Source: Blepharisma japonicum
Lineage: Eukaryota; Ciliophora; Heterotrichea; Heterotrichida; Blepharismidae
NCBI GenBank assembly: GCA_949751835.1
Contig: CATKHK010000032.1
Span: 372,001-436,000, forward strand
DNA length: 64,000 nucleotides
Reading direction: 5' to 3'
Of the stretch, positions 6,922 through 60,906 are shown in pieces (position 1 is the first letter of the stretch; each line of letters opens with the position of its first letter). The position numbers and the translations under genes were made by a program. The notes beneath the pieces were generated by a model. It was not told where the DNA came from. It searched no databases and worked only from the letters and a program-made list of their open reading frames with translations.

Positions 6922-6997
6922 TATCAAATATTTTAATCGTAAAATGCACTAAAGGAACTTAAGCAAATATTATTTATGGAAAATAATTTAAAGCAAT

Positions 6998-7881: not shown

Positions 7882-8433
<552 letters not shown>

Positions 8434-23404: not shown

Positions 23405-26400
23405 TTAAATAAAGACTAGAGCTACTGCAGCCCAGATGACTGAGAGTTCAAAAGCTGCATCTGTAATAAGAACAAGAGTAGGTCTTTTCTTTTCTGCAAG
23501 ACAAATTATGCTTTGAATGTTGCTATCAGCCATTAAATCAGGATCTAAAGGCCTATTATTCGCTCCTGTGAACCAAAATTCATAGTTTCTATTGGTAACA
23601 TTCTGAAAAGTGATGTTAATTGCGTTTATAGTTGAGATATCTATATCTTGGAAAATATCCACTTTGCTGTTTGTTGAGTTAAAACCATTTGAGATTTGCC
23701 ATGAATTTGGCATTGCCTCTCCTAAAGGAAGCGCAATTACATAAATTTTCCCCAAGCCATTGAGCTTTACATTGAATGTATATATATCTGAACTATTGTA
23801 AATAAGGCTTGGAGATATAGAAAATGATGGATTTTTATATGTAACTTCCTGTGCATTAGAAGTAACTGAATAATTTGTATCAAGATTAGACAAGTGATTT
23901 TTCAACAAATCTAAATTATTATCCAAAGTTTGAATGTAACTTAATGGAGATTGCATATCTAGGCTTCTATTAGCCACCATTGTGATTTCATAGTATAAAA
24001 TACTAGTCAATCTTCTATTGAAAATATCATATGATGCTGGATCAGTTCCTGTATGATAGAATAAAGAGGCTGGCAAAGCAAGAGTACTGGATACAGCATC
24101 AATTACTTTTGTTGGAGAAGATAAAGATGTCGTGTAAACATTAAACTTGGCTGGCTTATAAGAAACCAAAGTTGTAAAATATAAGGTTTTTACCGTTTTG
24201 GAAGCAAGTCCATTGATCCCCATAGCAGCAAATGATATCATATAATTAGTGTTGTCGCGAAGGTTTGGAATTGATATTATAGAGCTTATTAGCAGAGGAG
24301 AGGTAGAAGAGGATCCAAATGTTTGATAATCATCATTATTTACTCTAATCTTTTTGATAATACTAGTTGCATTTGGAACCACTGAGCCTGGATGGGTCAG
24401 CATATAATAAACTGTCCCATATTGACTTAAGGAAATTTTGATTTCAGCATTTACCCTTCCTATTTTAGTCATGCCAGCACTTAATATTTCAGGGACTTCA
24501 GTTGAGGATGAGGTGATAACTAACCTTGTCTTTGATTCTTCTAAATAGAAGCACGGAGAAGATGGCCCACTTATTTTAAAGTCAATAAAAGTAGAAACTG
24601 CTCCAGGCTTTGCTGTAATTGTGAATGATTTCTTATACTCTCCATCATTGAAAGCTAAATTGAATGGGTCAAAAATAAAAGAATCTACAGAATCTTCAGC
24701 AGACAGGGACACTATTAGGTAGTCAGCAACAGGGCGCTCTAGTTCAACATTGATAGGAACCGTTGCTCCATTTATAGGCAAATTCCCAATATTATCTATA
24801 GAGATTTTATAAGTTTGAGTTTGAGGCAGCACATTTACAATGATATCCTTTGGAGTATAATAAGTAGCGGAGTTCGTAGAATCTGCTTCAAGCTGCCAAG
24901 AAAGAGTGTAATAACCAGAGTTAAGAGTAGACAAAGCTCCAATTCTGAAAGATTTAGTCATGTCCCAGGCATATTGCATAGATATCTTTGATGGTGATAG
25001 CTTTAGTTGGGAATTTGAAGAAGATAAGATAAGGCTTAATGTGGTATATGATGGTAGTTGAAGGGTTATAGAAAGAAAATCTGAGTAAGTACCTTGGAGG
25101 ACAGAGACACTTGTAGGGGATGAAATGCTATAGCTACTGTTGCTGAAGCTTAAAGATGGGATTTGGGTAAGCATAGGGAAAGATCTGTATTTTATATGTG
25201 TAGAATCAGCAAACCTCAAATAGAACCTTTCTGTGACTCCTGCTGAGCTTGGAGTGGGGGTGTTAAATACAGTAAGATTCACAATGGTGTTTGGGCTTTG
25301 AAGACTAGGAAGATTTGATATTTCAGTCCTGGTATATCCAGTATATGCTAAAAGTTTACAATCTAGTTTATAAGTTTTAGACGAATAAACCATATCTGCT
25401 GTGCAAGTTGTTTGGGTAAAGATTCTCGATATTTCTGTCGGTCAATCAATCCACACAACATCAGTCGTCAAAACAGTTTTTTCAGTTAAATCAATTGAAA
25501 AAGTATAGGAGGTTAAAGTATTTGCAATTGATTGCTCTGCATTTATTGAGTTCAGAGGAACAATGTCAGCAGCATGCGTTATATTAAAGATTAGAGCTTT
25601 TCCTGAGTCACTTAAGGCGACACCTGCAGTTTGATCGACTATAAAAACTTCCAAGTAGCTGGTAAGTCCTGCAGATGGATTTCCAATTCCATACATGCTT
25701 AAATCTATTTCTCTATTCTCAGTGAGATTGTAGTTTAAAATGCTAAAACTGACTTCTTTGTTTCCGTTCAAATTGCAATTCGTAAATGTCCCTGAAGAGC
25801 CACATAGGAATTTTACATCATTAGGGACTAGGTCATCAGCGTATTCTTCTGGATATCTAATTATAAGCCCAATGCTGTTACTTTTAGCTAAGCTAATACC
25901 AGTTTTGATCTTAAAGGTGTAATAGGCTTGCTCGCCACTATTTGTAGGGTAATAATTTCAATTAGTAACTATAGCATTTGCAGGCTTTGGATAAATTTGC
26001 ATAGTACTATTATCAGACGTTACAATTAGAGTCTGATCATAATAAATTCTTACATAAAATGGACTTACTGCTTTACTTGTTAATCCTTGGTCAATTGTGA
26101 CTGTAGGATTGACAACCTTTGATAAATGTATATTAACTGTGGAATAAAGAGCTACAGTTTCAAGTGTTGTTAATGTCACTTTAGAAGTTTGAGCAGAGCA
26201 AGTGGATAGAAAATCTGATGTGCAGCTTATGGATGAGCTTAAGTCATAAGAGTCAGGAAATCCAAGGACTATTTGAGTCCCGACTTGCAGCATGACAGGT
26301 ACAAATATATTAAACGTATAAGTATCTGATACCCCAATTGCTTTAAATCTAGCATTTACTGTAAACTGAGAGTTTGACTCAGAAACTTTACTTGTAATTG

Positions 26401-29400
26401 TTACTGTATTTGTTAGTTGGCTGAAAATGACTAAAAAGCTATTTGAGTCATAAGCATAAATTTTGAAGCCTTGTGAGCCTGTTGAAGTGGCTCCAATCTT
26501 GCTTGGGTTTTTTAGCCCAGTTACAATTATATCTAGATTTCCACTATAGTCAGAATTAAATCCAGATACCTGGATTACTCTGTCATAGACAGTGCATTGG
26601 TATATTGATGAACAACTAGGAACTGGGCTACTATCACTAAATCTTGGAAACTCTGCTGGCATATAAACTTGAAGATATCCTCCTTTAGGAATGGAAATGC
26701 TTGGTGCAACAGTCATTGAAAGCTGGACATAAACAGCACTAGCAGAGTAGTCAGATAAAGCAAGGACTGAAATTGCTGCTGTTTGAGCTGTCAACCCAGG
26801 ATTATTTGAAATGGCATAAGTAGTAAAAACTTCTGCGACATTATTTGATTTTACTGTATAGTAGTTAACGTAGCAGCTAGAACAAGTAAATACTGAGGTA
26901 GGGTTTTTCATGTTTTGCAGCTCGATAGAATAGGAATCAGAATTAAGAGAACCACCTAAATATATCACTATTATACCTGTCTGTGAATATGAGTTATATG
27001 AAAGATTAGATAAAACGTCTGATGATCCCCTCTTTATATTTACAATCAAACCAGAATCTGGGATAGGGTAAACTGATGGGAAGGTAATGGTAATCAAATC
27101 GTATGCATTTAGTGCAGCTAAAATATAGAAGCCTAAGGTTGCTGTGCATGTTTCTCCAACCATATTTTGAGATAATGATAAAATTTGGGCTGAATAAGAG
27201 GCTTGAGCTGTAGTAGAAATGGCTGAAAGGGTCTTATAGGATATATCGTAGATTCAAGAAATTGTTCCATCTGAGTAAGTTTGATATATCCCAACACCAA
27301 CTGTTGGCTTGTAAGTATCATATGCTCCATTTTTAAGTCTGGAGAAATGGATTTCTATAAATGTGTTCTCATGAATTTCTTGGAAATTAGTGATAGATAT
27401 ATATGAATTTGATGGTCTGGTCAAAGTTGAATCCCCCTTCGTAAAAATGCACTTCAAGCTTTCACCTTCTTTTGGAATGATTCCTTGTATCTTAGCGCAA
27501 GGCACAGAGTCTCCTGTGGAATAGTATCCCAAGTTATCTGAAAAGCTTTGGAAAATCTCAAAATTTATTTGCATAGTCCCTTGCGGTCCTGCTTCATTTT
27601 TAACAGTATTTGGATATCCAGGAGGAATATATTGTGATGTTGTGAAAGAAACCTTTAGGACAGTTGGATAAGTTGTTTCTAAATTTGTTAAAGAAATCGA
27701 TAGATCTGCAAAAGTTGACGAAGGTGAGATATATAAGGATGGGAACGAAATTTCAATGAGACTGTTATCATACATAGCATAAGCCTCTAGTTGATAGTAT
27801 CCTGGGATCTCTGGAACTCTATACCCATTCACAGTCTGCCCTGTTGTAGTTAATTGTAGAAACGCACATTGATTTTTGAAAAATCCAGAAAACTCGCTGG
27901 TATCCTCTGATTGCAGCAAAATTTCTAATGTATCTTGCTTTCATGTGCAGGATTTGGAAACAGGATGAGTGTAGTTTCGGCTTCAGTATAGAGGGAAATT
28001 ATCATAGTATAAATCTCCTTCCCCAATAACACAATATGGGCTTCCACCTGCAGGTCCAAATCCTGCTGGAAAAGTGATATATAGCGTTGTACCCATCGGC
28101 AAGTCAATATGAGGCTGGATCCTCAAATATATATTTCCTATCTCTCCTGCTCTGATTTTTCTTGAATAAAGATCAGTTGTTACTCAGTCAACCCAAAAGT
28201 CATAAGTACTCGAATAGCTTTGAACTGTTCCTAAAGACTGAGAAGAGTCTTCCTGTGCAAATAAGCTTGTATCAGTAGAATCATATAAACGTACTATTAA
28301 ATTTCCAGCAGCTCCAGCAGCACTTGGAGATAAAGCACCGATAGAGACTTTTATATGAGATGCGTTATCATAACTGAAATTTGTCAAAATCACATGCTTA
28401 CTTGTGCAAGAAGTTGAGGTGCAATCACTTTTACATGATAAGGGCGGAGTTGCTATTGTGGTGATTCCTGAATAAGATCTGCATTGGGAGTCGATAAACT
28501 GGAAAGAATTTGGAAAAATGATATCAACTCTCTTTAATGGAGAGCTTGAGGAAACTGGAAGAATATCAATTTCATAAATGTCGTAGTAGTTTTTAGGGAT
28601 TGCTAGTCCTTGCTGATTTGTTATTGTTACACTTGTGGGAGCTCGAGCATTGAAGGAATCTAACTGTATGGTATGGATTTCAGTCAAAATTCGCTTTGAG
28701 ATGATGTATAGAGTTAGAGTGTATGGTGAGTTTTGATGATAATTTGCAGAGATAAAGCCTGTGTTTGAGTTTAAAGTAAGCGTTTTACCGTTAAGATTAT
28801 AATTAGCTGATAAAGATATGTCAGTTGTTATTCATTGAGAGGATCCAAAAGATAATGATTTGCAAGTAGCAGAGCCGTCGCAGCTCCCTGCCACTTTATC
28901 CCCTGCAAATGCTGGCAAGTTGAATGCAGAGTCCATAATGAGAATATATGAGCCCCCTGATGAGTCAATAGTTCCTGAAGATGAAGAAAGAGTAATGACA
29001 ATTCCATTGCTGTCAAAATCAGTTAAAGTCAGAGTTGTTGATGAAACTGCAATTGAGTCTGATCTAGAAGTTGGGGAAGAAGTACTCAAACTTGTATATA
29101 AAAATACATCATCTTCACATTCAATCAAATCATAATCGAAATACTCTTGGACTATTGTTATTTTTGCTATGCAATTTAAGTCCTGTGAAAATATTGTATC
29201 AACTGCTAGTGTTGGATTCTTAATATTTGCAATTCTTATAGTAGAGCTTGTTCCTGAGGATATTGTTAATCCTGTAATTTCTATATTAACTGGGTTATAA
29301 GAAGTAGAAATATCTGGAACTGTAAACTTACAAGTAGCAGCTTGAAGAGAAGATCCCTCAAATTCGCCGCAGTTAAGTGTGACTGATTTACCAGTTATTG

Positions 29401-32400
29401 CCCCAATTCCGAGATCAGGATCAAAAAGCTTATCAAGCCCATTAAACGTAGGGAGAGAAAGACGAATAACATCAGTTGTGCTAATGCTGCTTGGAAGAGT
29501 CATTGCTATATCAAGAAATGTGAAATACCCCTTATTTGTATGGCCAAGCTTTATTGATAAAGCTGACATCTTAACCCCATACAAAAGCTTAGTGAACTTG
29601 TACATTTGTACACTTGAAGTAGAGGCAATGTTAGCCTTCAGGTACCAAGAAGTTCCATAGGCTTCAGTAATTGAGTTTGGTAATAATATTCCATTATTGC
29701 TATCAGAGTCTGCGAATCTATATGAAATTTGAATTTGTCTGGAGCTTGCTGCAGGAATTGTCATTTGTTCAGGGATTTCTATTTGAATATAGTTTGGAGT
29801 GCCATATGAAGTGCATTTTTCTGCTCTGACATAGTTTATTCCATCAGAAACAATACACTGAAGCTGAAGATACTGATTGGAGGATGAAGTACTTAAATAG
29901 GAAGCAGAAGAATCTAAATAAAAGTCAATTGTGTCATGGAAGCTGTAATCGTTAGTTCTAGGCGTTATGTCAAAGATAATACCTGAATACTCTCCAGGTC
30001 TTGATGGATATTGTGGTTTGTATTGCTGACTGAAGATTGCTGAGGCCAATACTTGAGGGGCGCTTAAAATAGATAATGAGAGACTCGCTGTGTTAGACTC
30101 AATAAGAGTATTTGCGTCATCATTAATTCCATAGATTTGAACTTCAAAAGAACCAATTGTAGTTGAGGTTGACGTTGTAGCTGAAGTTAAAGTTCCAGAA
30201 ATAAATATAGGCTTTGAGGAATCAGTGTATGCTGAGAATCCAGTTATTTGCCATCTTTGAGGACTTGAGGATGATTGGCAGTTCCAGTTTCCTGTTAAGC
30301 CACTTTGAACCCAGCAATTAGAACTGAGAGCTGTGAATTGGCTAGGAATCAAAATTCGAATACTTCCTCCTTCAGGGATTGACCTAATTGGAATTATCTT
30401 TATAGTATACGTATCTGTTCTTCCTGAATAGGGCCCATATGTTCCTTCTTTAAGAAGCTCTGGGGTAATACCAGTTGTGACCTCTTGATCTAAATTGAAG
30501 GATTTATAAGTCAGTGAATCTGTGTATACTCCATTATACCATATCCATCCAATCCATGAGACTGGAGCTCCATAAGCTGGAGTTTTAAGACTGAGATAGT
30601 TTTGGGTTGGTGACGAAACCAAACTTCAAGTTGACGACGGAAATGTTGCAATATAAGAATGGATTGGAAAAATGTAAGTCTCTGTAGGGCCTGTAATCCC
30701 AGATAAACTGAAGTAATTATTGTTCATCTTTAAAACATAAGCACCAATTTTTCCATTGGAAGGATCATATCTTATATCTTGAGAGCCTGTAATAGTGAAG
30801 GTTGCAGTGGGAGTTGTACTTGATATAGCTTTCGAACTATATGAAACATCTAAGGATGTTTGAGAAGCTGGGGAGCTTTGAGGATTTTCAGTCATATAAA
30901 TGTAATTGAATTCTCGATAGAAGACATATTGAAAATCATATGTTGTACTTGATGTTCACTGCCTTGCATACATTTTGATATTAATTATCTTTTCATTATC
31001 ACTTGGATTTGTGACTGGCAAAATGATTATTTTTGAAGCCGCAGATCCCAATATGGTACCATATTTTCTTATCCATATTTCTGAATTAGTATTCGTATCC
31101 GAATGGCCTCTTCTCAAGTAGCAGGTTGACGAAAGTCCTGCACAATCAGTAGCTCCCCAATCATCTGTATAGTCCGTATTACTCACAGAAGTTCCTAAGT
31201 TTTGGCTTCATACTGAGCTATCAAATTCCAATATAATTTCTGACTTTCCATTAGAGGTAGAAGTGTAGCCAATTCCCTCATCTATTGGTTCCTGAAAAGA
31301 TATGTAAAACCCATTCATGGTATCTTTTGCTTTAACAAAATGCTCAAGAGTGCAGGAAGCAAACTGAGGAGGAGCGATGAAAAGTTCAGTCTTATAATAA
31401 TAGTCAGGGTTCTGAATTATTACTTTATACCGATAGTTTGAGCTAGGATTTTGGAACAAAAAGCCTTTATTTTTTCCATTTATAGATGTAACGACGACAT
31501 TCCAGGTTTGAGATGTCGATATATCGTTTGTTTCTGGAGTAAACACTTTGATTTGATTATATGTCGTGCTTCCAGATGTAACCTGGCTATAAGTGCAGTC
31601 ATAAGCCATATAAATGGTTGAGCTTATAATTCACAAAGCCCTGCAGGTATATAATTCTGGTGATGTTGGCGTCACAAACACTTCAACAGCTGTGGTGATT
31701 GTGATATATCCAGTCTTTTTGGTAATTGATGTAGTAGAGTCAGTTTGGATTGAAAATTGAATATCCCCATACTCGTTTTGCCTAATTGGAACTTTTGAAT
31801 CAAGCAGCCCAGGAGAAACCACTGAAGATTTCTTTAAAGCAATATTAGAAGAAATTGTAATAGTTTTGGTATCTGAGTTCATGATTGAGTTGGTGCACGT
31901 TTGTTCTTGGCAAAATTTCAAAGTGATTGTTTTAGCCCCTGAAGAAGTTGGATTTGTAACAGGAAGTAGCATTTCAATTGATTCTTGGTTATATTCGAAG
32001 CCTGATACTAAAAAATAGTTAGATGCGCTATTTCTTTGGCATGACCCAAATCCATTCTGATTGTCTCGCCCAGTGCTAGTTGGAAAGATAAAATCACACC
32101 TAAATCCAAGAGTAAACCCAGCAGGAAAAATGACTTGAAAATAAGAATTTTTTGAGTAAACTTGGTTTACTTTCATTGTAAGCTTATATCGCATTGCAAG
32201 ACCCTGGGAAGAGTCAACTGAATCATATGCTGAAATGCTAGTAGTACCATCAAAAACATCAGGCTCGTACTCGGCATCATTCGCGCTAAATGTTATTATA
32301 GATCCTACCTTCTGATTCTTTATAAATGTGGCGACAACAATATTGGTTGATGGATTATAATTCAGATTAGTCCAAGACCCAAAATGTCAGGTTGTTGTTG

Positions 32401-35400
32401 AAGATGTAATTGATGAAGTCGGTTCACAAATAATGCTGTATAAAGGCTCCAAAATCAAGCTTGTTGGTGAACACTCTTGAATTGATAGACTTGTTCCAAT
32501 TGCATATGGGAACTTAAAAATTATATATTCAGATCCTGCAAGAACATTAGGACTGTTTACAGTAAGAGAAAATGTTGTGGAAGAAGCCCAAGTTTTTTTG
32601 GAGCTTAAAGATGAAATATATGAATTTTCAGTTGAGGTAGCTGGACTTTGTGCTGACGAAGTTGTCAGAGCATATCAAATAATCCCCTCTGCAATGTATT
32701 TGTCTCATTTATCAGAATCCAGAGTTATTAGCCTTACCCTGACATAAGATGTTAACCCAGTAATAGAATAAAGAGTTATTTGAGGAATGAAAAGATCAAT
32801 TTGGCCAGAATCGGAGGCTTTTACAGGGATTATAATAATTGCAGGCCGATAATTGAAGTCAGTATCTGAGGAGTCTTTATTCTGACCAAATCTGATATAG
32901 CAGCTAATCTGAGTAGTAATTTGATGAGAGTCACTGTATGCACATCCAAGAGAAGTTTGAGATGCCTTGCCAAGTGATTGATCATAATAATCTATGCCAT
33001 TAAAATGTGTAGGAAATTCAGCAATTAAATAGCTTTGATCAGAGATTGTAGTACTAACGGAAATCTTAAAAACAGATATAGAGCCTGCATTAGCAATTAA
33101 TGGAGTAATTTTTAGCTTACTGAAGGCTGTTTGACCTAAAATGTCTACAAAATCAGAAACCATCCATTGTGTTGCACCAGATGAAGTAGAAAGGGAAACA
33201 GTTATGTACGGCTTTCCTGATGCAGGAAAAGCTACGCCATTACCATTTATAAACTCTCCAGCAGTGAATATTTGTAATATTCACTTATCATTATATGTTA
33301 TTACCTTTGTTGATGGCATAGCTATTTTTCACTTATTCGAAGTTGAGTCGAAAGAGCATTTCTGTGAGCTGTATTCAAAGCCATTAGAATCAATGAACTT
33401 GCAGACTGCTCTGCCTTTTGATGAGGAATAAGAAAAAGGATAAGGAGTACTACCAGTAGTAGGAATAGCTATTAGTATATTGTCTGTAGATGATGGAGAG
33501 GCTGCTAATTTAAAAATTAGTGTTAACTGCCCTTTGGATCCTCTTATAGGTATCAAAGATGATTTCATAACATAATAACTGGTAAATAAATCATCTGCAA
33601 ATAATATATTATACTGAGAGTTTGTTGTTAGTTGGCCACTCACATATTTATCTATAGTATGTGAGTCATCAGAATCTTTATGCGTACTTATTGTATATGA
33701 ATCTCCTATTGAAGATGAAATAGTTACCATTCCTTGAACAGTTAGAACACCGCCTCCATCGCAACCTTCAAATCCACTTATAAGCCACCTCTGATTTGTG
33801 TTTGTTGGTACACATTTTAGAAGTGTTCCATCAAAGGAGGTTCCACAGCCAGTAGCTGTCATTTTACAAGCTATCGATGATGAACCAGTAATAGTTGAAG
33901 AAATCCCTGATGGAAATAAAATGCTTGTACTTCCTTGGCTTGGGATTGCATTAACGATTTTATAAGTGAAAGTTACTTCCCTAGTATATTGGTAGACATT
34001 ATATTGCTCTATGGGACTTGAATTAAGTGTGATTGCTCCGGGATTTATATTAAGAGTACCAGAATTAAAAGTGTATTTATCTAGGAGCATCCCATTTAAA
34101 ATTGCATAACCCTGAATTAATTGTGTTGCGTCCGTGGAACTATAATATACATTTGAAAAAGCAAAAGTTGTTGCAGTTGCAGATAACCCATTTATCTGCT
34201 GCTGAGGGATATAAAGCATTCAGCCGCTACTTGGCACCATTTTGCATATTCCAGTGTCGCTTGAAGTTATAGAATTGCTGACAGATGCTTTACTAGACGA
34301 AGATAATGCAAAATCTGTTGGACTAAAAATGAATAGAAATGAGCCATTATTTGTTCCGATATTTTGAGAAGGACTAAAAGCCAAGTTAAAATTAGTGAAC
34401 ACTTCTTGGATATCAGGGTATGGCTTTTGAGTCGTTGAAGGGTTTGAGCCAGTTTTTATTGTGAAAAAATTTTTGAGAGCTGAACCAAATCCTTTATTAG
34501 CTCCCAAAGCATAAACGAAAATATCTGTAGAATACTGACCTGAAGGATTAACAATATTTGCAATCCACAAAGCTGTTAGTGTTCCACTATCAATTTTATT
34601 ATTAACAAATACTTTCAAGTACAACATTTTTGGCAGGGTATACCCATCCCCATTATGACTCAAGAAAGTACAAATTTGTTCACTTTTTAGATTGCCTGTG
34701 GATGTATAAGTCAGATAACAGTTTCCATTCATGTTACTGGGAGTCGTTGAACTGAATAGAGAGTTTGAAGCAGCATCAACAAGGGGAAATCCAACTAAAA
34801 TTTCACTAGATGCAGTTATGTCATCATTCGCATTAAAGTTGATTTCAATGAATGTTGAAGATCCGGTATCCGAAACATACGATGTTCCATATAACTTGGA
34901 AAATGGGTAGTAAATTTGTAAAGGAGCTGATTTTGCCGAATAAGTGCTTGATGTAGTTGAGCCAGATGTGAAGATATCCAAGCTCGCTTTAATATTACTT
35001 GAAAGTAAAAATCCAATGTTTGTACCATAGGTTCCAAATGAAACTTTATATTTTGTAGACGAAAGTAATGCGAGGTTTAGAGGAGCATATATATCCGTTA
35101 TTTTACCATCTGTAGAAACTAAGACTCTTGCAGCAGAATATATATCTACTGCTGATACATCTTGAAAAGTGGCCCAATATGTTGGCGGATCATTTGTGGT
35201 TATGCTTGAATCAAAAGTCAGACGAATTATGCCATTGCCTTGATTTATAAGACTTTGAAATTTGATCTGAAAAGTAATTGGTGAATAATCTTGAATGGCA
35301 GCAATTTTGACTGGAGTTTCAAAAGAAGCTGGAAAACGTAAGTTTTGAGATGAGATATATGCAATACTGTTAGATACTAAATTCATGGAAATTTGAGAAT

Positions 35401-37939
35401 CACTATACCACTTTGTTTCTGAAAATGAAGAAGGTGCTGAATAAAATGCACTAACACGAACTGAGCTATCACTAGTTGATGATAGCATAGTCACATATAA
35501 ATATAGCTTAAAAAGGTTTGAAGATGTTATTTCTTCGAAGTTTGTAAACTCTAAGTATGCTGTGCTTGATAAAGTTGTTTTTGCCATTATTATTCCATAT
35601 TTTCTTTTGTTATCTACGAGAACATATGATTTTGAATTGCTGATAGTTAATGTGTTAGAATTAAAAGAAACCATGAGGGCACCCAAGTGTGCGAGATTAC
35701 TATCGAAATTCCCTGATATAGTAAGCTGAGTGTCTTCAGTAGTTCAGATTACTGAATGCAGGGTATTTGTATTTGCTATTGAATATGTTGAGATTGGCTG
35801 ATTGGCCGAAAAGCTATTGGTGCCAGAGAATGATTGGAAGCCGTAACTATTTGAATAGAGATAGCCCTTATATGAATATGTGCCACTATTTCAAGGATTC
35901 CTTATGCTTAGGCTTAAGGTTGAATGCGTATTCACAAGGAATTTACCATAAATGCAGGGACATGGGTTATTGGAAAATGATATTATCCCTGTAAGAGTTC
36001 CATCAGAAGTTGCTGGCGCTGCAGAACTATCCAAATCTTTGAAGGTCATCAGAACATAATCGTTTGGATTATAGTTTAGGCTGCTCAATGTAAATACTCA
36101 TGTAGATGCAGCACCTGCATTAGATGGGGTAGGTGAATAATTAACAGTTGCATCAGTTGAACTACTTGCGGATGCGACATTAACAGTTAAATAATAGGAC
36201 TTATAGTACAGTTTTTTTAGTCCATATAGTATCAAATTAACTACTATTTTAGAGTTCCCACTAGAAGGAAAAATTACCATAGGGAAATACGCATTCAGAT
36301 TTGTTGCACCATTAGGTGTGTCCACTAATCAGCATGAAATAGTTCCTCGAGTAGAAGAAGACATTCCGTTTCGAACTGTGCAGGCCCAGTTCGAGTTCTG
36401 AGAGTTAGAACTCACAAATTTGAAAGGAGGAAAATCTCCAGTGTTCAAACCAAGACCCAATTTATTATCCGTGCTATCAAAAGATATTTCTATAGCAAGA
36501 GTCATTGTGTTACCAGTGCCAGCTAGAGTATTGTAATCTACATTTGTTATTGAGAATTCATTCATACTCAAATTTACATTTAGGACAGTAGGCTTTCCTG
36601 CATATAGGTAGTTAGTGCTTACTGAGCATGTAGTTGTACCACTAGAAAAAGTAACTGGCCATGAATAGCCTTCACGAAGAGAGCTGCCATAATAAGTTAA
36701 AATATTGATAAAGCCATATCCTTTATAACTGATGAGTGAAGAACAGGGAAGATACAAATATAATGTTAGTGATTGGGTGTTTGAATTGGATGGCAAGTCA
36801 AGTTCAATGCTAGTTCCAGATCAATATGGTGAATCTGAATACAAAGTATACGATTGGTAAACTTCCGATGTGCTGCAGGTTCTTGTGGACCCTGACGAAG
36901 GAACTGAAAAAATATCTGTTGAAATTATGATTTTGTTTATTGAGTAAGAAGGGGTAAAGCCGATATTAAGATATGTTGAAGAGGTGCTATAAGTTCCTGC
37001 ATATCCATCATTGATTTGTACTGTAGGTGTTGAAGACAAGGCATAATAGCTATAGCCGCTTGGTGGGTCTAAATTATCTGTCCATTTCAACTGTGTAAAC
37101 AATTTCTCACATACAGTATCTTGATATACCTCTATCATCACACTAGCATCTGATGCTGGATTTGTTACAAGCAATGAAATAGTGAAGGGATTGGTTAAGG
37201 TCTCTCCAAAAATATATGCAACTCCTCCACTAATGCTTCAAGTTACATTTTTTTCTTTGGAATCATTCCCAAATACAAGAAATGAGTTATCAAGCCCACT
37301 ATATTTTCCGTTTGCACCATCTGCAATATAAAATTTGATTGTACCTTTTCCAAGTGCATTTCATGCATCAGTTGATCCTGATCCCCATGAAAAACGTCAA
37401 CTATAATAGCGTTTCATCCCAGGGTAGTAACTTGGATTGGGATTGCTTAAAGTTTCAACTGAATGGGTCAAAAAATCTTTATTTATTTTGTTAGAGTCAA
37501 TGCTAATATTCCCCAATAGCGTATACTTATTTGTGCATATTCTATTCTTTGAAACAATCATCATAAAACTATTTGATCCACCACCTATGCTGGAATGCAT
37601 TGGCCCTTGAGCTTGAAAAGGCGCAGTGCTTACTGCTGATGCTGTGATGAGTATTCAAGGAGCTTTAGTAAATATTGTTACTGAATTCCCTGCTGTGGCA
37701 ACAATGTTTGAGGATGAGTAATCGAAACCATTTAGCCCAAATTTTATTAACATAGAATCACTGTCTTGTGGGATATTTGAAAATGTGAAAAGATTGTTTT
37801 TATTGTATAAAGATGAGAATGATATATCTGCAGGAGTAGATGATGAATAAGTTCACGCCGCTGAAGTTGTTACTGATCCTGAAGCGGCAAATACATTTTT
37901 TGCAGTTCTTTCTTCGAGGACTTGAAAGGTCTGCGACAT
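23405..37939 (-). CDS. Giant modular surface protein, C-terminal part (frame continuous with 38042-47212)
   Basis: The frame runs without TAA/TAG from 38041 down to a TAA at 23405 (4,878 codons; the first ATG after the upstream stop is at 37939). More than a dozen TGA codons are read as Trp. It continues the same modules as the upstream part: strand-rich units with IP.GGSI.I..PS.F, two Cys, I.ITG and (G/N)IxNPS endings. A possible FN3-like stretch (LRDNTNYMISFAAMGINGL) lies near the end. The last 17 residues (FELSVIWAAVALVFI) are hydrophobic after a polar spacer, fitting a GPI-anchor signal or a tail anchor. It has no signal peptide of its own at 37939, so on its own it would not be secreted; it makes sense only joined to the upstream part. 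Ser/Thr/Asn-rich with many NxS/T sites. Confidence 0.75.
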
Positions 37940-38041
37940 CCTCACAACTCTTATGTCAACAATTCCTTTATCATAATTAGCAGAGCTGGGAGATGGATTG
38001 ACAATCCCTGGTATTATTATTATAAAAGTATTCTCGGAGGT

Positions 38042-38044
38042 TTA
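38042..38044 (-). other. Single in-frame TAA inside the giant reading frame
   Basis: The frame reads HIVNLVTVD, TAA, TSENTFIIIIPGIVNP. The spacing from Pro to the closing NP is 30 residues when the TAA is counted as one, the same as in sister modules (for example PSYIEV...IVNP), so nothing else is missing. No 15-16-nt intron covers it; the only GT...AG span is 18 nt and would shorten the module. Confidence 0.85.
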
Positions 38045-41000
38045 ATCCACAGTAACAAGATTAACTATATGGATTTCAGTAGGATGATATAGAGCTTTAT
38101 CTCCATAGTATAGATAGCATTTCATATCTGTTAAAGATCCTCCAGAACAGCCAATCTCGCCACCATTACTGATTCCTGTGCCCAAATCATATGCAAAAAG
38201 TTCTATTGAGCTGTCTCTGTTTATGGTTGGAAATTCAATAATAAAAATATCAGTCTTAGTGGGTTGGGATTTTACCTTAATTGTAAAAGCATTCTCGACA
38301 CCAGCTGTAATATGCATCACACTCACACTTAAGTATGAAAACAGACTATTTGGCGAGGAATAAAAGTTAAACCCTTCCTGTAAGTCATTTCCACTGTTGT
38401 CTTTGACAGAGACTTTGATATAGTATTTGTTGGTTGTTGAGCTTTGCAATCCAAAGCCGTCATTTCTCCCGTCAGCTCCATGTGTTTTTACAATAAATCT
38501 ATACTTTGTATTTGTTGTTAGTGCTATGCTTGGTATGATTTTAATATTACTGGTATTTTCGAAGGTGCAGGTCGCAGAATATTGGGTTTGTACGCTTAGA
38601 ATACTACAATCAAGAGATGCATCTGAAGCAATTGATGAAAAAGCTGTGCTTGGCGTTAGCAAAATATAAGAGCCAACAGCTACGTTACTGCTTGGCGAAA
38701 AGAAGAATTCTATTTGAACATTATCGCCAGCCTTTGCTGTTGTTGAAGGCAGCTCTTGAGTCTCGAAGTTAAAATAAGAAGGAGCTGAAGGCGAAATTGC
38801 TGGCGTAACTGCATTAGTGCTGGCTGAATAGAAAAAGAAAGTGCTGGTACAGCTCTGATCAAGGTATAAGGATGCTGTGATTGTTCCACTTCATGATGAA
38901 CTTGGCTTGTAGGTTGATTTAACAGCAATTATGCTTGAGGGATTGGTACTATCGGTATCAGTGGAAAATCCAATAATCTTCAAGTTCAAGTCAGTAGAAC
39001 TTGCTGAGCAGCTCCAGGATCCTCCATTATCAGCAACTATGTTTGATGATGAGTAGACATTTGTGCAGTAATCAATAATTGCAGCTTCAGGAGTTGTGAT
39101 TTTCAAGCAATTCGTGTTCATTAGCTTAATGGGAGGAATCTTTACTGTAAATATCAAATCTACGATTTGGCCTGGGCTGTAATTTGTCAGAGCAGGGGCT
39201 ACAGTTAATAAAGAGTTTGCAGTCAATGCAGAAGGCAGGGTGGATGGAACAGTATACTTGTATGTTCTCTTTGAATATAAAGAATTGAAGTCTGTTGTGG
39301 TAGGAGCAGAGAGGAAGTAAGCATAAATATTAGTTTCTCCGCTATTAAAATATGATTTTCCCACACTCAAAGTCAAGCCCAGAGAGCTAGTTGCGGTAGT
39401 CGTAATAGCCAGGACTTTAGAAGATGCATGTTTTTGGTTTATTGTTCCACTTGATGAAGACGCGATAGCAGCTCCCGATATATCAAATGTTGATGGAAAA
39501 CATAGGTATAATAAGTTTCATTCACTTGTAGAAGGTAAGTTGAAAGAAAAACTTATAATACTTTGATCACTATCTGCGAATACAGGGAAATATGTCGAGT
39601 CAGCTGTTCCACCATTATTAGTGACTGTAAATACGTCATAATAGGTTTGTAAATACTTCACAGCACCACTATAATATCCCGCAACAGTGATATGGACATG
39701 AGTACGATCATCTGCCGTCCATGCAGGATTCACAATGTTATCAAGATAAAATGTAATTTGTGAATTGCCTGCTATACTTCCATCATATCCAGGGGTTACT
39801 TCAATATAAGAAGGGCTCATCTGATTAGTATATCCATGATTAATTGTGCAAGTTGCAGAGTTAAGTATAGATGAAGAGTCTATATCGCATGGATAATTGT
39901 ACCCACTTGCAAGTCCAGTCCCTAAATCAACTGAAAATAAGCTTGTCCCATGATTATCTTTTGTCGGAAAATACACCCTAATTTTGTCCATATTAGATGC
40001 CAAAGTAGCACAGTTGCCACATGAGATTTTAATTGTGAAGAAATTTGGCATTGATGCAGAAGTATGTGCTGGAATTACTTCTAAATTTGTTCATTTATCA
40101 GTAGTATCAGTAGGAGCTACGTTAATATTTAAATTTCCAATTTCATCATACGGGCTTCCTCCAGAGTAAGAAACAGAAATTTGAATTTGCATTTTTCCTG
40201 GAGTTGAAGGAAGCTGCAGTCCTTCTTGTTCAACAGTATCTGAATTAGTTGTCGTGAAGTTTAAATCTATTTTTGATGAGGCTGAATAGCTAACAGGAGC
40301 ATAAGTAGTAATTGTTAAAGTTGTGTCTGCAGATGAAAAAGAAGCTTGGCAGGAAGTGTCTACTTTTAAGTTCCATAAACAAATAAGTGTAGAGCCTGAT
40401 TGAAGATTTTGAAAGCCTGGAAGAGTCACTACTATTTTTCCAGTTGAGGCGCTTATTGTGCCTTTAGGAGTATAAGAGAATACTAAAGGAGCATATGAAT
40501 TTGTAGGAGCTTCAATAGGAAACTCATACTGTCTTGGAATTTCAAAATAAGTAGGAGCTTCAGAACTACTATCAACTGAATTGATTGTTATGCTATTTTT
40601 CTCGCTTTGGGTTGTGCTTTTTTTCGTTTTATCCCAAACAGTATAAACATCAATTGAGTTTGTTGAAGATGAAGTTGTTTTTGAAGCCATCGTCACAGCT
40701 ACAAGAATCTTATAATCTTGGGACGCCTGAAATCCAGAATCAGGAGCATATGTCAATACCTTGCTAGAAATTGTGCAAGAATATGATTCAAGACTGTCAT
40801 AGTGGACATAACAATTTCCTTCAGGGAGAATATTATTTGCAGAAAAATCAGCAATTATTGCTCCGCCTGTAGGTATATCAAATTTTGGGTTCACAGTTAA
40901 TAGCATATCAAATGTATCTTTTCCATAATATGTAGTAGGCAAACTAGTAGTTTGATAATATCTTACTATTGTTGGAGATGCTACAAAATGAATAGTCGTC

Positions 41001-44000
41001 AAACTATTGAAACATGAATCAAACATAAAGGTCTGAGTCAAAGTTCTGTCTTGCATATAATATATTGTGATCTTAGGATTATTTGAATTATCATAATCAT
41101 GGTTTGGATTTATAACATCACTAATTTTGATTGTCAAAGCACCAGCTGGGATAGAGCTGCCGATTTGGATAATAAGTATCTTTGCAGAAATATCAAGAAT
41201 GCACATACTGCTAGTGGCAGTGTCCTCACATTTTGGATTTGTAGAAAATGAAGTATCAGCAGGTAAGTCTACTAATAAATAGTCAGATGTACTTCATCCA
41301 GAAGCTGCAGGATTAGATCGAGGCTTTTGATTTGTTGGCGCTGGAATTGCAAGCTCATAAAAGGTGGTTGCGGCAACAGAATAACTGTTAGCTGTAATTG
41401 CTGGAGTTCCTGAAGGAGTGCTTTGTGTATATGAAAATAAGTACCCAAGATTATTTACATAACTCTGGCATAATTTTGTGCCTGACAAATTGGATGTCAT
41501 TGTAGCTGCATATATTGAAAGAGAGAATATTTCAGAATCAAGATTCGAATTCTTATTTGGGTTCATGAATTTACTTATGAAAAAATGAAAGGCAGTCCCA
41601 GAGGTGATAACTGATGCCGGACTGACAAAAATTCTTGCGGGTTCATTATCCAAATTTGAGCCTAGCTGAAAAGTGCATTTTATACTAATAGAGTTATCAC
41701 TCCCAGCTATGCATGGAACATCGCTATCATCAGCATACCCAGATCCCAAATCATCGTCAAAAAAAGTTGTTGGGAATTCTATCACAATTCTTCCTCCACC
41801 GCTTGTAGATGCAGCTGGTATATCATGATCGCATTTTAACGAAATATCCAATAAGTTTCTTGAGTTTGGAATAAAGTTACCAGGAATTACAGTAATACTT
41901 GTAAATTCCTCAGGCAATGTCTCTACATATAGTGTTGAAACATAATCAACAGTACTACTTCCATCATAGTTAAGGCTTAAATCTAATTTGACTTGACCTA
42001 TAGAGCCTCACTGTAAGCCTTGATAATTGTCTCTGTTCACTGTTGTTATTGTTAGCTGCAAATCTGTATTTGAAGGAAGGTCTGAGTCTGCAGGGGCGTA
42101 TATCTTATAGAGCGTGCTTGCGCTATCATATAAGCAATCTGAAGCAAGCTTTTCAATATTATTGCTCTTTCAAATACATCTCAAGCCATAAGGGTGAGAA
42201 TATGTCATTGATCCTACGACTGTAAGGAATCCATTTCTTTTAAGAATGTCACTTGCTGAAGATATTGTCAGCACCAAAGGTCCAATATTATTTGTACTTC
42301 TTATTGGCTCAGCTCTATGATACATTAATCCCTTGGTTCCAAATTCAGTTGGCAAAAGCTTCACTGACGATGGACTCATTACAACAGAAATGACTACCTC
42401 TGAATCTCCATCTATAAGTTTATCAGTGTTGGTATTTTCCCAATATGTATTGAAGTAAAGAGTATATGTTGCTGCTGCTATTTGAGCATTAACAAATAAA
42501 CTTATAGTATCAGTATCCTGGATATCTGAAGAAAACCCATAGATTGTAATGACTACATTTGTTGAAGAAGGTGAATCGGTTAAAACAAACTTTAATCCTT
42601 CAGGATTTATGGTACTCTCCGGTGTTAGCCGAATACTGTTCTTGTCGATTCCAGATGCCAAACCACCGAATTCAATTTTGATTTGACCAGTGGAAGGAAT
42701 GGGATGGATCGGTTGGAGCGTTATTCTATACAATTCTGGCTGGTTGGGGAAATAATCATAGTAGTTTGATATTGATACTTTAGCTGGAGAAGTAGATTTA
42801 AAGCTTCCGGCGTTTAAATAATTTGATTGATCAAAGCTATAAGATGTTATCACTTCTAGTTTTCTATCTCTTATTATCATTGAAGAGCCTGTTATTTGAT
42901 ATTTATATCCAGGCGCTTTTATCCCGCCTATCTGAATTATGAAGTGATTTCCGGCTACAATATGCGTAAGTTGAACTAAAGCATAGTTTGATATAGGGAA
43001 GCTGATGCAATAGCTCTGAGTGTTACCGTTTATTGAGCAAGTCATACTTACTGCAGTATAGTCAATGGGGAGCTTTATCATTACATAGTCAGTTATACCC
43101 ACATCTTTAGTGCTATGCACCAAGTTTATGTTCAAAAATAATCCACTTGCATAAAGTTCAGGGCGTTTACATGCACTTGTATCATAAAAACAATCTTTAG
43201 TTGGATCAGGAGAAATAGTAGAGCTTATACTAGAAGGGAACGTTAAGGTAGTGTCTATATAAGAGACCAGTTCTTCAGCTTTGGTTACAAAAGTTGGTGA
43301 TGTTAGAGTTTGCTCTTCAGCTCGAACTCTTATTTGCATATCATAATTTGAGTTAGAAGGATTTTTTATTGGGCCAAGGTAAAAGTGGAAAATTGTTGAG
43401 GCTTGAGAAGAGCTCGTAGACAAGCCAGTGATTTTAATTCTAACATAATCAATATAGCCATGAATAAGTGTGCAAGTAATCCCTTGTTCTGTTGAATCAG
43501 AAAAATAAGGACAATCAATTGGACTGTTATTTGCCAAGCCTGTTCCCAAATCAAACGCCCATGAAGGGTAAGGGAATTCAAGCCACACAACTTTTGTGTT
43601 AGACAAAGAAATTCCAATCATGAAATTAAATTCAAGGAAATTCCATTGGCCCGCGTATTTTTGAAGCGAGTTGATGTAGATATATTTGAACCCAATGGCT
43701 TGAACATGCATCCAAGGATTCGCAAATCCATTGCTATTATCAAGATTTGAAGTGGTTATCTTGAATTGATAGTCCCCTGCTGCTGAGGGATATTGAATTC
43801 CGACCTCATCTGCAGTGGCGTCATTAAGAGTGCTAATATAAAGTTCATGCAAAGCACTATAGCTCACATCAGTATCTCTATTAGTATATACAGTTATATC
43901 ATTTCCGCTATTTTTGCACCAACTTGATATCTTGCCATCAATATAGCAATCTAAAATTGTTGATGAAGGCACTGAAAAGTCAGCAGGAAGGGTAACTAAA

Positions 44001-47000
44001 ATTTTTGCATAATTACTGGCGTTATCAGATTTTGTCAAAGTGACACCTGAAGGTAGCTGAAAATTGAAAACTATTGGGCCTATACTGCCAGCTCTGGCAT
44101 TAATTTTTGGAGAAACAAAACTGTGCAAGTTTGCTGAGGTTGGAGAATTTAGAGCTGATGAATAATCAAACATAACTGTTGTCTGCTCAATTAATTTATT
44201 AAGAGTGTCATCTTCGTCATTAGACGATATTGTAATACTGGTTGATGAAAGACTTGAGGGGGTATTCACGAACCCTAAAAAATTAAAAGATGTGCTAGTT
44301 GGCAATTCTCCTGAAAAGCTAAGAACATATCTATAGCAGATGCTAGGAGAGGTGCAAGCATCATCTTTTACGTAACAATTGGCATTGACACTACTAGGAG
44401 AAGTAATTTTATAGCAAGAGGTTTCTGAAATTGAATAATCAGTAGGAAATGCAACTGAAACTGTACCTCCAGCTGTAATTCTTTTAGTGGTTTTGAATTG
44501 AAAATTAAGTAAAGCTTTATTAGAAAGAACTTTATCTGATGTTGGAGTTAGCATTTCAGTGATTGTAGGAGTAGATCCAACTGTACTATCAAAGGTCCCA
44601 AGCGTAAAATCGGTTGTAGAAATTTTAGCACAATAGGCTACCTCAGAATTGCTAATTTGGTAAACTGTAAAGGTAGTTGTTCCTTTATATAGCCTATTTT
44701 TTAAACTAATGCATGGGTTGATAGAGCTAGAACCAATGCTTGAAGATGGATTTTTGAAAATTATCACTTTAAAATTGTCTGATATATAAAAGTTGTAGCT
44801 CCCAGTAGTTCCCAAGGAACTTGTACCTCCACAAATAGAAATGTTAGTACTAGTCAATTTTTTGAATTCGTTAGGGATTATAATGAACAGTTTATCGTTA
44901 GTTTCGAGAGAAATTCCTGAAGAAATAGTGAAGGTGTATTCAGTGTACTCATATTCAGGGGTTGTAGTTCCGGTGGCAGTAACAGTTCCAGTGCTAGTGC
45001 AAAGAGAACTTTTTTGTTTCAATGGAGAATCTCCTGCAAGATCTTTATATTCTAATGGCACTCCATCTGGATCTATAGTTTTTACTGTTGCTTTAGGCAC
45101 ATAGCCAATAAATTTATTATTTTTAATTCAGTAAAACAAAATATTTGTTGGACTTTGACCAGCTGAAATAAGTTTCTGTGAAATAAGTTTTACTTTGGCA
45201 GGAATTAAAGGAGTTCCAGCAGTTATTGTACAGCTAGCACTCGTTCCCCAAACTGAAGTATCGAAAACGCATTGAAATGAAGAGGTCTCAAGTGAATGCA
45301 AGCCTGTTCCAAGAGTGTTTGGAAACCCAAAATTACTAGTCATGAAATCTATTTCAACTCCTCCTCCGATTTGAATATCAAGCCCATTGCTTATTGATAT
45401 AGATATTGTATTTTGGTAGTCCACTGAGTAATGCATCAAGTCCCAGCTTGCAGAGCCTTTATTATTTAATGAGGCCAAATCAGAAGTACTGCCAAGTTCC
45501 CTAGGAGCTTGCAAGTAATTGTAGTTCATTACTTCAGTTAAGCTTAGTCCACTTCCACTGTCAATTGAAACTTCAACTTTTATTGTCTTTTGTCCGCCCA
45601 TAGTGGCTAAAAATCCAAAATGTGTTTCGGTTGGATCTCCTAATGTGGTTACTGTGATTGCTAGCGGACAGCAGCCAAATTTCTCAGCTGCTGGAGTAGT
45701 AATTGTTATGGTAGGAGGAGATCCAGATGCATATAGACAAGAAGAAGCTGGGATTTGAGCAGACCCAAATAAGCATGAAAGCTGAGTATAGCTTGGAGGA
45801 ACTTGAATATCGCTTGGAAGATACAATTTTATTTGACCAGTTTTTCCATTGGCTGTAGCAGGCAATTCAGTTCGGGTTTGTAGATAAAATTCGAAAGGCG
45901 CATAATTTCCTAATGGAGGTGTAGTCTTAGCCTTAAACATTTCCGCATTTATTTCTGTAGGTGCACTTATACTGGAAAGTATGATTGTAGCTGCTTCATC
46001 ATTTTCATCAATTGTATACCCATCTGATGTAAATGTTGATATCTTGAAATAACTAGAAGTACCTGAGATTTTTGAATTCATTGCCACTGCTTCTAAAAAA
46101 ACTAAGCCAGCTTTAAAATCGTCAAATTGAGTTATAATGATTGAATTTCCTGAAGGAGAGCATGTCACAGAATCTAATGGAGTAAGCCCATTTAAAACCT
46201 TACAATATGAAACTGACTGATATTCAGAAGGGAATCAAACTTTTATGCTTCCTCCAGCAGCAATATCCCCATGAGTCTTAAACTCAATATTATAAGTTCC
46301 TTCAACTGACAAGTGTAAAGGCTTTCCACTAATCTGGACGCTTGAAATTACTCCAGGGACTATATAAGGGCCAGAAATTTCGCTTGAAATCTGCTGGACT
46401 GTATAAGTTCCTTTTTCCATGATTTCAGCCAAAAAATATCCTGTTGATCCACTGTGAATTGGATTTAAAATTCCATAAATTCTTATAGTTATAGTACTTG
46501 GCAATGCTGGTAAGCTGCTTGTTTTTATTTTTAATAAGTCAATATTATCCTGGCTGCATGAAATATATGAGCTTGTCTCTTCAATATAGCATTTTAAATT
46601 TGAGCTGATTGAAAACTCATTTGGCAGTGTAATTCTTATCCATGAACCAATTTTTGCATTTGAATCTGGAGTTATTGTAAATTTGAGTAAAGGAGAATAA
46701 TTCGCCATCAAACTTCCGTCGACTTGCATGAAGCAATTAAGTGAGGTTGGCGAGTCAAAAATTCCAATTGAAGGATAGAGCTCGTTAGAATCTTGGATTA
46801 TCCCATTGATTAAAGTATAGACTTTAAAATATCCTGTTCCTTGCATTGATAAAGGATTTTGAATATTTTCGACTCCTAGAGATATTGCTCCAGCTCTTAG
46901 TGAAGCGAATGATCATATTATAATATTTGAATCTCTTGTACAAGGAATTGAAGTTTTTGAGAGCTGAGAATACACAAAACCATTGCAGGACGCGCTCTTG

Positions 47001-47212
47001 AGACTTGGAAATTCCTGTGGAAAATGAATTGAAATCTGGGCTGACTCTGAGATGCGACTTGGAAGAATGAATTGAAATACATAAAGAGAAAAGAGACCTT
47101 TGTTGGTTCGATAAGCTGTTATTGATGTATTTGGGTCTGGAGTTATTAAAGCAGAAAGAGCCAAACTAATAAGTAATTGAAAAAAAGTGACTCTTATCAT
47201 TAATTTTGACAT
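38042..47212 (-). CDS. Giant modular surface protein, N-terminal part (3,056 aa to the in-frame TAA)
   Basis: It starts at MSKLMIRVTFFQLLISLALSA, a clear signal peptide, and runs 3,056 codons to TAA at 38042-38044. Numerous TGA codons are read as Trp; there is no intron. The protein is a chain of diverged 130-200-residue beta-rich modules. One class is marked by a DLGTG(L/I) turn, a Cys, a second Cys in C(T/Y)(I/L)..G, then P..I.(I/V) and an (I/F)xNP end; copies lie near 45310, 43550, 41750, 39910 and 38190. Another class carries (I/F)P.GG.I.I.FP. The fold looks like Ig-like/adhesin sandwiches, but no named family is recognised. Inferred role: an extracellular or cell-surface scaffold. The in-frame stop removes the C-terminal anchor unless it is read through. 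Confidence 0.8.
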
Positions 47213-48114
47213 TATATAAAATTTATATTCATATAAAAAATAATAAAAGTTTAAATGATATCTTCTGTCTTAATAATTTAAAATAAAACATTCTTCTTTA
47301 TCTCTTCAACGTTAATCTTTTAATATAATTTTTGAAAAACCCTGATGGCACTATCAGAAAGGAATATTAAATTTTTTGCTATTAATAAATATTAAATATT
47401 TCAAAATTATCTCCTATAATAGAAAATAAAATTCATGGAATAGTTATAAAATATTTTATTTGGATGCAGATACTTGATGAGAAATTATATAATCAATTTT
47501 AATTTTCTTAAATATAATAATTTAATTTCAATATAAATTCAATTGCATACATTATTATTTTCTAAAATAATCTTTTATGCAATTGACAATAATTTATTTA
47601 TTACAAATATACAATTTTTGTGTTGGAAAAGATTAAAACATAAAAATTAAAATATTTCTAATAAGATTTCTTATTATATTTACTTCAATTGATATTTAAA
47701 ACTTCTCATGAAATATTTTCCTCTCAAATTTCCTACCCCTTACAGAGATAAAAAATATAATAAAAACTAAGTGGCATATTACAAATTTCTATTTCTGCCA
47801 CCCAAATTGCATCGTTCTTATTTTCGTTTATAAATCTATGAAAAGAAATCAAAATTAAAAAATTTTTGGTATGCTTAGGCTTAGGCTTAACACTTCAAAT
47901 ATTAAAAAGGACATTTTGAAGTGAAAGACTCAATTTTTTATTCTTAAAAATCTTTAAAAATCTTTAAAAATCACCAAAAACTTTAATTTCTTTCCAAATT
48001 AATAGATTTGAAAGTATTTTTTCTTTGCATTTGTGATGAAAGAAATTTAAAAATATGTGCACTCACAAAAAAATCGAAATCATCACTATCAAAGAGAATA
48101 AAAATGATAATAAT
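47213..48114. other. Intergenic between divergent giant gene and receptor gene
   Basis: About 0.9 kb of very AT-rich DNA. It holds a short direct repeat of CTTTAAAAAT units near 47945-47972 and two and a half TTAGGC units near 47874-47889. No gene recognised; it must hold two divergent promoters. An in-frame extension of the receptor back to ATG at 48055 is possible. Confidence 0.5.
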
Positions 48115-51100: not shown

Positions 51101-51666
51101 ATATTAAAGCAAGTCCAAAATACTTGATCATCAAAAGTGAAGCCCAAATCTTATTTGTTGTGCTCAAAAAAACTCTTGGGTACTTTCAGGATAAAATATA
51201 TGGATTCATATATTTAATCCTATTTATAATTTACACATTAGCTGTTTATCATATAAAACCATATAATTATGATAAAACCTGCTTTGCGCTGCTTATATCA
51301 ATGATAATGATTCTTTGGTCTATAATTTGAACATCTATATCAAATTTGCTTGATTTAACGAACATTCCTTGACTATGCTGCCAAATGATTGGTTGAACGG
51401 CAATTTTAATTTGGGGGACCATGAGGTCCAATAAAATTCCGTCTCTTATTATAATTGACAAAGGACTTGATATATCTATTTTATTTAAATTTATGCTTGG
51501 ATTGATTGAAGCCGATAAAATACACAAAAAACCCCTTAAACTTGCTTCTAAGAAAAGTACAATGCGCACCTACAGAATTGATAATTTAAATATGACAGTA
51601 GACAAATCCGAATTTCAAATTGAGTCTTATTCTTCAAATTCCATCAATATAAGGCTGGAAGTTTAA
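48115..51666 (+). CDS. Receptor with two tandem PBP1/ANF-type ligand-binding domains and a 7TM-like region
   Basis: A 1,183-residue protein, continuous when about ten TGA codons are read as Trp. A signal peptide (MNFICYLCLIKLVYSFG) supports the start at 48115 over 48055. Two copies of the type-1 periplasmic-binding fold follow: the first with NFFGWKNLGVISND (about residue 135), the second with CGANTRRAALSNK, YPEFMRVTSNDEYFAV and YFGWNNVAIIYSN (about 450-500), the typical ANF-receptor lobe sequence. After about residue 780 there are seven or eight hydrophobic helices (IFIGLCFFIFAISVIF, FWIAMILTLLAVYL, IYGFIYLILFIIYTL and others). The layout resembles class C GPCRs, but with a duplicated sensor. 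No kinase or cyclase domain follows. Ligand unknown. Confidence 0.82.
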
Positions 51667-60859: not shown

Positions 60860-60906
60860 TTAAGATAGTCAATAAAATTTAATAAGATTTTCATTTGAGT
60901 AATAAA
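60860..60906. promoter_or_regulatory. 47-bp divergent promoter region
   Basis: All that separates the ATGs of the ankyrin/SAM gene and the SMARCD-like gene. It is A/T-only in large part (AAAATTTAATAAGATTTTCA), so both promoters must share or overlap. Confidence 0.6.

Follow-up and report, generated by a model that had tools for sequence, protein, structure and literature searches.

Introduction

Surface proteins and filaments made of tandem immunoglobulin-like (Ig-like) domains are already known from bacteria, animals and algae. In Chlamydomonas, the mastigoneme protein MST1 is described as part of an extracellular filament, carrying nine Ig-like domains in tandem and a Cys-rich domain of the GFR type (PMC11015965). 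In ciliates, the Tetrahymena mating-type proteins MTA and MTB and the complex member MRC1 are described as combining a GFR domain with five transmembrane helices (PMC10901506), and furin-like repeats are reported for MTA and MTB (PMC3608545). Here, a giant gene was analyzed that lies on the minus strand of a 64,000-nucleotide stretch of the Blepharisma japonicum genome (assembly GCA_949751835.1, contig CATKHK010000032.1, positions 372,001 to 436,000; hereafter the window, in whose coordinates all parts of the gene are given). Its product is probably a glycosylphosphatidylinositol (GPI)-anchored, extended surface protein, serving as a stalk, adhesin or coat, that arose from an amplified block and a later duplication of the whole gene.

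Reading frame and sister gene

With TGA read as Trp, the minus strand from 47212 to 23405 formed a single frame (23405..47212) of 7,936 codons, with the terminal TAA counted in. It contained 36 in-frame TGA, no TAG and two TAA, namely the final stop and an internal one at codon 3057 (38042-38044); the other five frames held 261-498 TAA and TAG each. At the given base composition, the probability of 7,934 codons without TAA or TAG was log10 P ∼ -175, a value that leaves out the freedom of placing the one TAA, and an origin of the frame by chance is excluded. The GC content was 36% in the gene and ∼16% in each flank (400 bases on the 5' side and 160 bases on the 3' side). An earlier note, made from the letters of the window, had described one intronless frame interrupted by TGA and a single TAA; both points were borne out, as the frame required no intron, the question of the internal TAA aside.

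Three proteins of the family served as queries against the genome itself (45.2 Mb in 224 contigs). At least 22 distinct matching loci were found, the window included, and 11 of the 22 were read; the two weakest, C33 and C53 (E-values near 1e-5), were not among these. A sister frame at C126:39748-63813 was open for 8,021 codons under the same code. Counted from its first Met, the product has 8,017 residues; its N-terminus is of the secretory type and its C-terminus GPI-like. The window protein and the C126 protein were colinear over the full length, and 2,048 of 7,523 aligned residues were identical (27%). A C-terminal unit of ∼560 aa (residues 7381-7935 of the window protein, 23408..25072) was common to seven members, i.e., the window, C126, C87, C2, C22, C25 and C35; its profile was built from four of them and C22, C25 and C35 were found with it. 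This unit was weakly fn3-like (fibronectin at E 0.0072 by profile, Pfam fn3 in one of six members at E 0.043). Apart from the two giants, the open frames of these members measured 2,044 (C87), 1,995 (C2), 2,004 (C22), 2,023 (C25) and 1,793 aa (C35, cut at the 5' end).

Modules and their predicted fold

The repeat unit of the giant was a single module of ∼139 aa, detected in 36 copies at E≤0.01 and in 42 at E≤1, in agreement with the dozens of diverged beta-rich modules that had been proposed before. In seven proteins of the family, 113 modules were found at E≤0.01, compared to two when the residues of these seven proteins were shuffled ten times; by this profile evidence the modules of the giant are one homologous family. 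The alignment A1, in which 74 tandem pairs spread over 1,411 columns, could not be used. The AlphaFold2 model of the module was an Ig-like beta-sandwich with a predicted local distance difference test score (pLDDT) of 84, and a model of four consecutive modules (block 1, see below) reached 80.8. Many modules carried a Cys pair; over the whole window protein, Cys (1.5%) was scattered along the chain and often paired, and Pro amounted to 4.8%.

The earlier note recognized no family for this protein. In the databases this held, since a scan of three window-protein segments at E≤1 returned no Pfam family and NCBIfam gave no match; in its own genome the protein was not isolated but belonged to the multigene family described above, with related modules and eleven blocks. 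A PADLOC scan, confined to block 1, gave no match. When 74 single modules were compared with Pfam, 18 families appeared at E≤0.1, each in one or two modules and including DUF2808, Big_8 and fn3; these were set aside as noise and generic Ig likeness, several being plainly unrelated. For DUF2808 a distant relation to the module is possible: the C2 protein, at 26.3 bits, slightly exceeded the cut-off of 25.3, with no single stretch passing alone. However, only two of the 74 modules matched it at E≤0.1 (best E 0.0011) and none of the three window segments did at E≤1. Among PDB sequences, profile A2 found ClfA at E 0.088 and CfaE at E 0.95, and profiles A3, A5, A6 and A7 found at most a few, seemingly unrelated entries; at such an E-value ClfA was dropped as a sequence relative.

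The search of the AlphaFold2 models with Foldseek, which the earlier note had suggested as a check, returned matches to the Ig-like fold, with no close known family by sequence. Where the module matched structures of diphtheria toxin, this was taken as common beta-sandwich topology only. Relatives outside the genome were sought in viral contigs with the C6 modules (three pattern stretches, none confirmed) and in GTDB genome contigs with the C31 modules (38 pattern stretches, none confirmed); both searches detect close relatives only, so that absence there is weak evidence. Plasmids (C6 modules) and phages (a 411-aa stretch of the window protein) gave no match, and a literature search judged by titles and abstract openings yielded no paper on this module family.

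Four-module blocks

A repeat spacing of ∼590-600 aa and its multiples was seen in the window protein before any block model was made. A block hidden Markov model (HMM) was then built with 11 segments of the window protein and one of C87 as seeds, leaving C126, C22 and C25 outside the seed. By construction from its own seeds, the window protein carried 11 contiguous blocks. Downstream of the N-terminal modules 1-2 (residues 24-300, 46313..47143), block 1 comprised four Ig-like modules (residues 301-890, 44543..46312) and was followed by block 2 (42764..44542), block 3 (40940..42763), block 4 (39179..40939), block 5 with the internal TAA (37424..39178), block 6 (35723..37423), block 7 (33971..35722), block 8 (32195..33970), block 9 (30443..32194), block 10 (28586..30442) and block 11 (26729..28585). 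Further modules, assigned by the module profile, filled residues 6829-7380 (25073..26728) up to the C-terminal unit.

In C126, outside the seed, the HMM found ten strong blocks, and a weak eleventh (E 1e-5) appeared in the right gap after an iteration that included C126. One block each was found in C25 (residues 329-889) and C22 (residues 312-879), likewise outside the seed. The matches were less clear in C2 (two, at 2e-8 and 4e-20) and in C35, where they were absent before iteration. In C87, C22 and C25, the block was followed by another, weaker match, as general module similarity would lead one to expect. As ∼2,040 aa and ten extra blocks of ∼590 aa add up to ∼7,940 aa, the two giants fit the ∼2,000-aa family plan enlarged by ten extra four-module blocks.

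When the blocks of the two giants were compared, with two block borders of C126 set by hand, the mean score was 506 for blocks of the same index and 231 otherwise. The same-index block of C126 was the best match for nine of the 11 window blocks, and eight of the 11 pairs were sisters in the block tree. In that tree, pair 6 had low support (0.32), blocks 3 and 9 cross-paired and block 7 was unpaired. Because most blocks pair by index between the giants, the amplification of the block most likely preceded the duplication of the giants.

Conservation between the giants was uneven. Modules 1-2 were the best conserved part (98 of 277 residues identical, 35.4%), and among the blocks, block 11 ranked first (204 of 613, 33.3%). 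The C-terminal unit reached 29.8% and blocks 1 and 4 ∼29-30%; block 6 was the most diverged block (21.7%), with block 7 next to it (22.9%). Few insertions or deletions occurred in modules 1-2 and the C-terminal unit. In the signal peptide, four of 23 residues were identical.

Ends of the protein

Hydropathy exceeded the threshold near both ends, at residues 5-23 and 7915-7933, and weakly (1.61-1.66) at residues 2003-2030. The N-terminal peak lies in a signal-peptide-like segment (residues 1-23, 47144..47212) and the C-terminal one in a hydrophobic, GPI-like tail directly before the stop (residues 7915-7935, 23408..23470), both called from hydropathy and sequence. This is the layout of a GPI-type protein, with an N-terminal signal, a short C-terminal hydrophobic segment and no other strong transmembrane helix, and it matches the two ends named in the earlier note. 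Terminal hydropathy peaks were also present in C126, C87, C22, C25 and C35; the end of C2 appeared hydrophobic by eye and stayed below the threshold. The window protein thus fits the GPI-type plan of its own genome, consisting of a secretory N-terminus, at least ∼10 modules of ∼139 aa, the ∼560-aa C-terminal unit and a hydrophobic tail. Judged from these sequence features, the giant would be GPI-processed and located at the cell surface. Storage in cortical granules, as an extrusome or secreted-matrix protein, would also agree with a secretory N-terminus and a huge, repetitive sequence of extracellular type. We regard this as very unlikely, as a GPI-like tail is found in the members with the C-terminal unit (weak in C2) and searches of Pfam, NCBIfam and PDB matched no granule protein, although these databases may hold few such proteins.

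The internal TAA

The internal TAA lies within a module of block 5; the C126 frame stays open at the corresponding position. It divides the frame into open reading frames (ORFs) of 3,056 and 4,846 aa, as two adjacent genes at 38042-47212 and ∼23405-37945 would. Such a split is hardly credible: it would fall inside a module (residues 2976-3128) with no AT-rich gap or spacer at the TAA, the first in-frame ATG past the TAA lies inside the same module and is followed by no hydrophobic stretch, and C126 is unbroken across the corresponding place. Codon usage on the 5' and 3' sides of the TAA was closely correlated (r = 0.97, compared to 0.29 between the 5' part and the +1 frame), and the GC content per codon position was nearly equal on either side. 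An intron across the TAA was rejected by eye, as the shortest GT..AG interval there spans 18 nt and would delete residues aligned with C126.

The TAA may instead be real, in which case the window copy would be a recent pseudogene or truncating allele that yields only a secreted fragment of 3,056 aa, and C126 would be the working copy. We consider this possible but not probable. The stop codon itself speaks for it, no 15-16-nt GT..AG interval spans the TAA (by eye), and two other family loci close to C6 (C5:418283-421165 and C13:259252-262083) also have one in-frame TAA each within the matched stretch. However, a single base error accounts for the TAA equally well. Moreover, no further stop occurs until the end of the frame, and the coding signal and the homology to C126 persist past the TAA, so that any loss of the window copy must be recent. 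If the TAA were a recent nonsense allele, C126 would be the unbroken giant; the findings on the family, the blocks and the duplication are independent of its nature.

Receptor-like relatives

In four further members the modules were followed by a Cys-rich part, with seven modules in C31, six in C108 (frame cut at the 5' end), seven in C6 and seven in C73, where the Cys-rich part was assigned by eye and the frame was cut by the end of the stretch. Pfam Furin-like_2 scored above the cut-off in C108 and C6 and below it in C31, and the best matches of the C6 protein and of the C108 Cys-rich part were R-spondins (furin-like). Hydropathy peaks grouped by eye gave five helices each for C6 and C108, and four for C31. 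In having an extended extracellular region at the N-terminus, furin-like Cys-rich sequence and four to five hydrophobic helices, these three relatives resemble MTA, MTB and MRC1 as these are described (PMC10901506, PMC3608545).

The giant could accordingly be part of a recognition receptor, working with, or evolved from, receptor-like members of this kind (∼7 modules, a furin-like part and four to five helices) in cell-cell recognition, and the module family common to both points in this direction. This role seems unlikely to us. The giant ends in a GPI-like tail and differs from MTA, MTB and MRC1 in lacking both the Cys-rich part and the transmembrane bundle: no GFR or furin-like Cys-rich domain was found by Pfam in three window segments at E≤1, and in place of five helices, hydropathy rose only at the two termini and, weakly, at one central site. 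In addition, the two mating types of Blepharisma are described as secreting gamones (PMC9942806).

Neighboring genes

At 48025-51663 on the plus strand, head-to-head with the giant, lies a gene for an ANF_receptor protein of 1,213 aa, in which several hydrophobic segments can be made out by eye. Genes of this family also lie on either side of the C126 giant, at C126:31045-34512 (beyond one other ORF) and from 65446 onward (the next ORF); no such neighbor appeared in the sequence retrieved around C87, C31, C108, C6 and C2. The ANF_receptor family is very large (309 first-look candidates, 38 of them scored), and its adjacency to both giants may reflect either coincidence or an ancient segmental relationship. 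An acid-ceramidase/NAAA-like enzyme is encoded immediately downstream of the window giant, in convergent orientation (22199-23239, plus strand). Ordinary genes of eukaryotic type in the window encode a DEAD-box helicase (5563-6927, minus strand), a Hid1/Dymeclin-like protein (15464-17479, minus strand), a DnaJ/Zuotin-like protein (17586-19106, plus strand) and a SWIB-domain protein (60895-62271, plus strand).

In B. stoltei, TGA is described as encoding Trp and introns as being 15-16 bp long (PMC9942806). A crude intron test in the window gave two candidates of 15 nt, compared to 0-3 for the other lengths from 12 to 23. These are GTA..TAG intervals at 60398 and 56588 on the minus strand, outside the giant, whose removal joins open frames, and they lend weak backing to the 15-nt introns which the earlier note had placed in small neighbors. 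No mini-intron was found at the end of the Hid1-like ORF. A depletion of 15-nt GTA..AG strings in the giant (3, with 13.3 expected) was dropped, as it was not repeated in C126 (12, with 13.3 expected).

Discussion

Starting from the direct results, i.e., the frame, the family, the module homology, the block architecture, the order-conserving duplication of most blocks and the predicted Ig-like fold, the following history and function of the giant can be proposed. An internal four-module block (∼590 aa) of a ∼2,000-aa surface protein would have been tandemly amplified to eleven copies. The whole giant gene would then have been duplicated, and both descendants would have retained their length and, largely, their block order. 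The resulting protein of ∼7,900 residues would hold about fifty Ig-like modules, a number obtained by dividing protein length by module size (36-42 were detected singly), framed by an N-terminal tip and a C-terminal anchoring unit that are both conserved. At ∼4 nm per Ig-like module, these may form an extended stalk of ∼200 nm that keeps the N-terminal modules away from the membrane and serves contact, adhesion or a coat layer. The stalk would drift in sequence while its length is kept. The near-equal length of the two giants at 27% identity, the few insertions and deletions in modules 1-2 and the C-terminal unit, and the GPI-like tail are the reasons for this model, in which the stalk shape and the adhesive or coat role are extrapolated from the protein sequence.

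Of the roles listed in the earlier note, cell-surface coat or adhesin fits best, given the GPI-like tail and an Ig-like fold common to many surface adhesins and filaments and also to unrelated proteins. The mating-related role is suggested only via the furin-like, multi-helix relatives, and the extrusome matrix is disfavored by the tail. Two paralogs that differ in 73% of their aligned residues have both kept eleven four-module blocks, which suggests that physical length is under selection. A bolder proposal, which we put forward as quite doubtful, is that the module is an ancient, uncurated extracellular Ig-like unit of protists used in mating-type-like receptors and surface hairs, and that both 8,000-residue proteins are GPI-anchored, length-conserved rulers of ∼200 nm in which the eleven-block length, not the sequence, is selected. 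As the same module family occurs in receptor-like proteins of mating-type architecture, a module profile would allow surface proteins and mating proteins of ciliates to be compared directly in their extracellular regions.

Among known Ig-like systems, MST1 (PDB 8wa2 and 9b4h) was matched by the four-module block in Foldseek at 1.6e-8 and 1.3e-7, with template modelling scores (TM-scores) of 0.15-0.17 (by query). Its order of Ig-like domains and a GFR Cys-rich domain (PMC11015965) recalls the receptor-like family members, whereas the giant has no Cys-rich core. MST1 was not among the sequence matches of five module or block profiles, nor among those of C6 or of the C108 Cys-rich part. Integrin alpha chains (calf and thigh Ig-like domains) matched at ∼10% identity and a TM-score below 0.25, as a bead-on-string match only; unlike the giant, they have a transmembrane helix, and no propeller was recognized in the giant. 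The N2-type domains of MSCRAMM/Clf-type adhesins have a DE-variant Ig fold. The Gram-positive adhesins and pilin shafts (ClfA/ClfB, Srr, SdrE, UafA, SpaD, PilA) show no significant sequence similarity to the giant (see ClfA above), which in addition is eukaryotic, ends in a GPI-like tail and carries a Cys pair in many modules. Set against these systems, the giant is a eukaryotic tandem-Ig protein of ∼8,000 residues with a GPI-like tail, built from a module family not recognized by any Pfam model.
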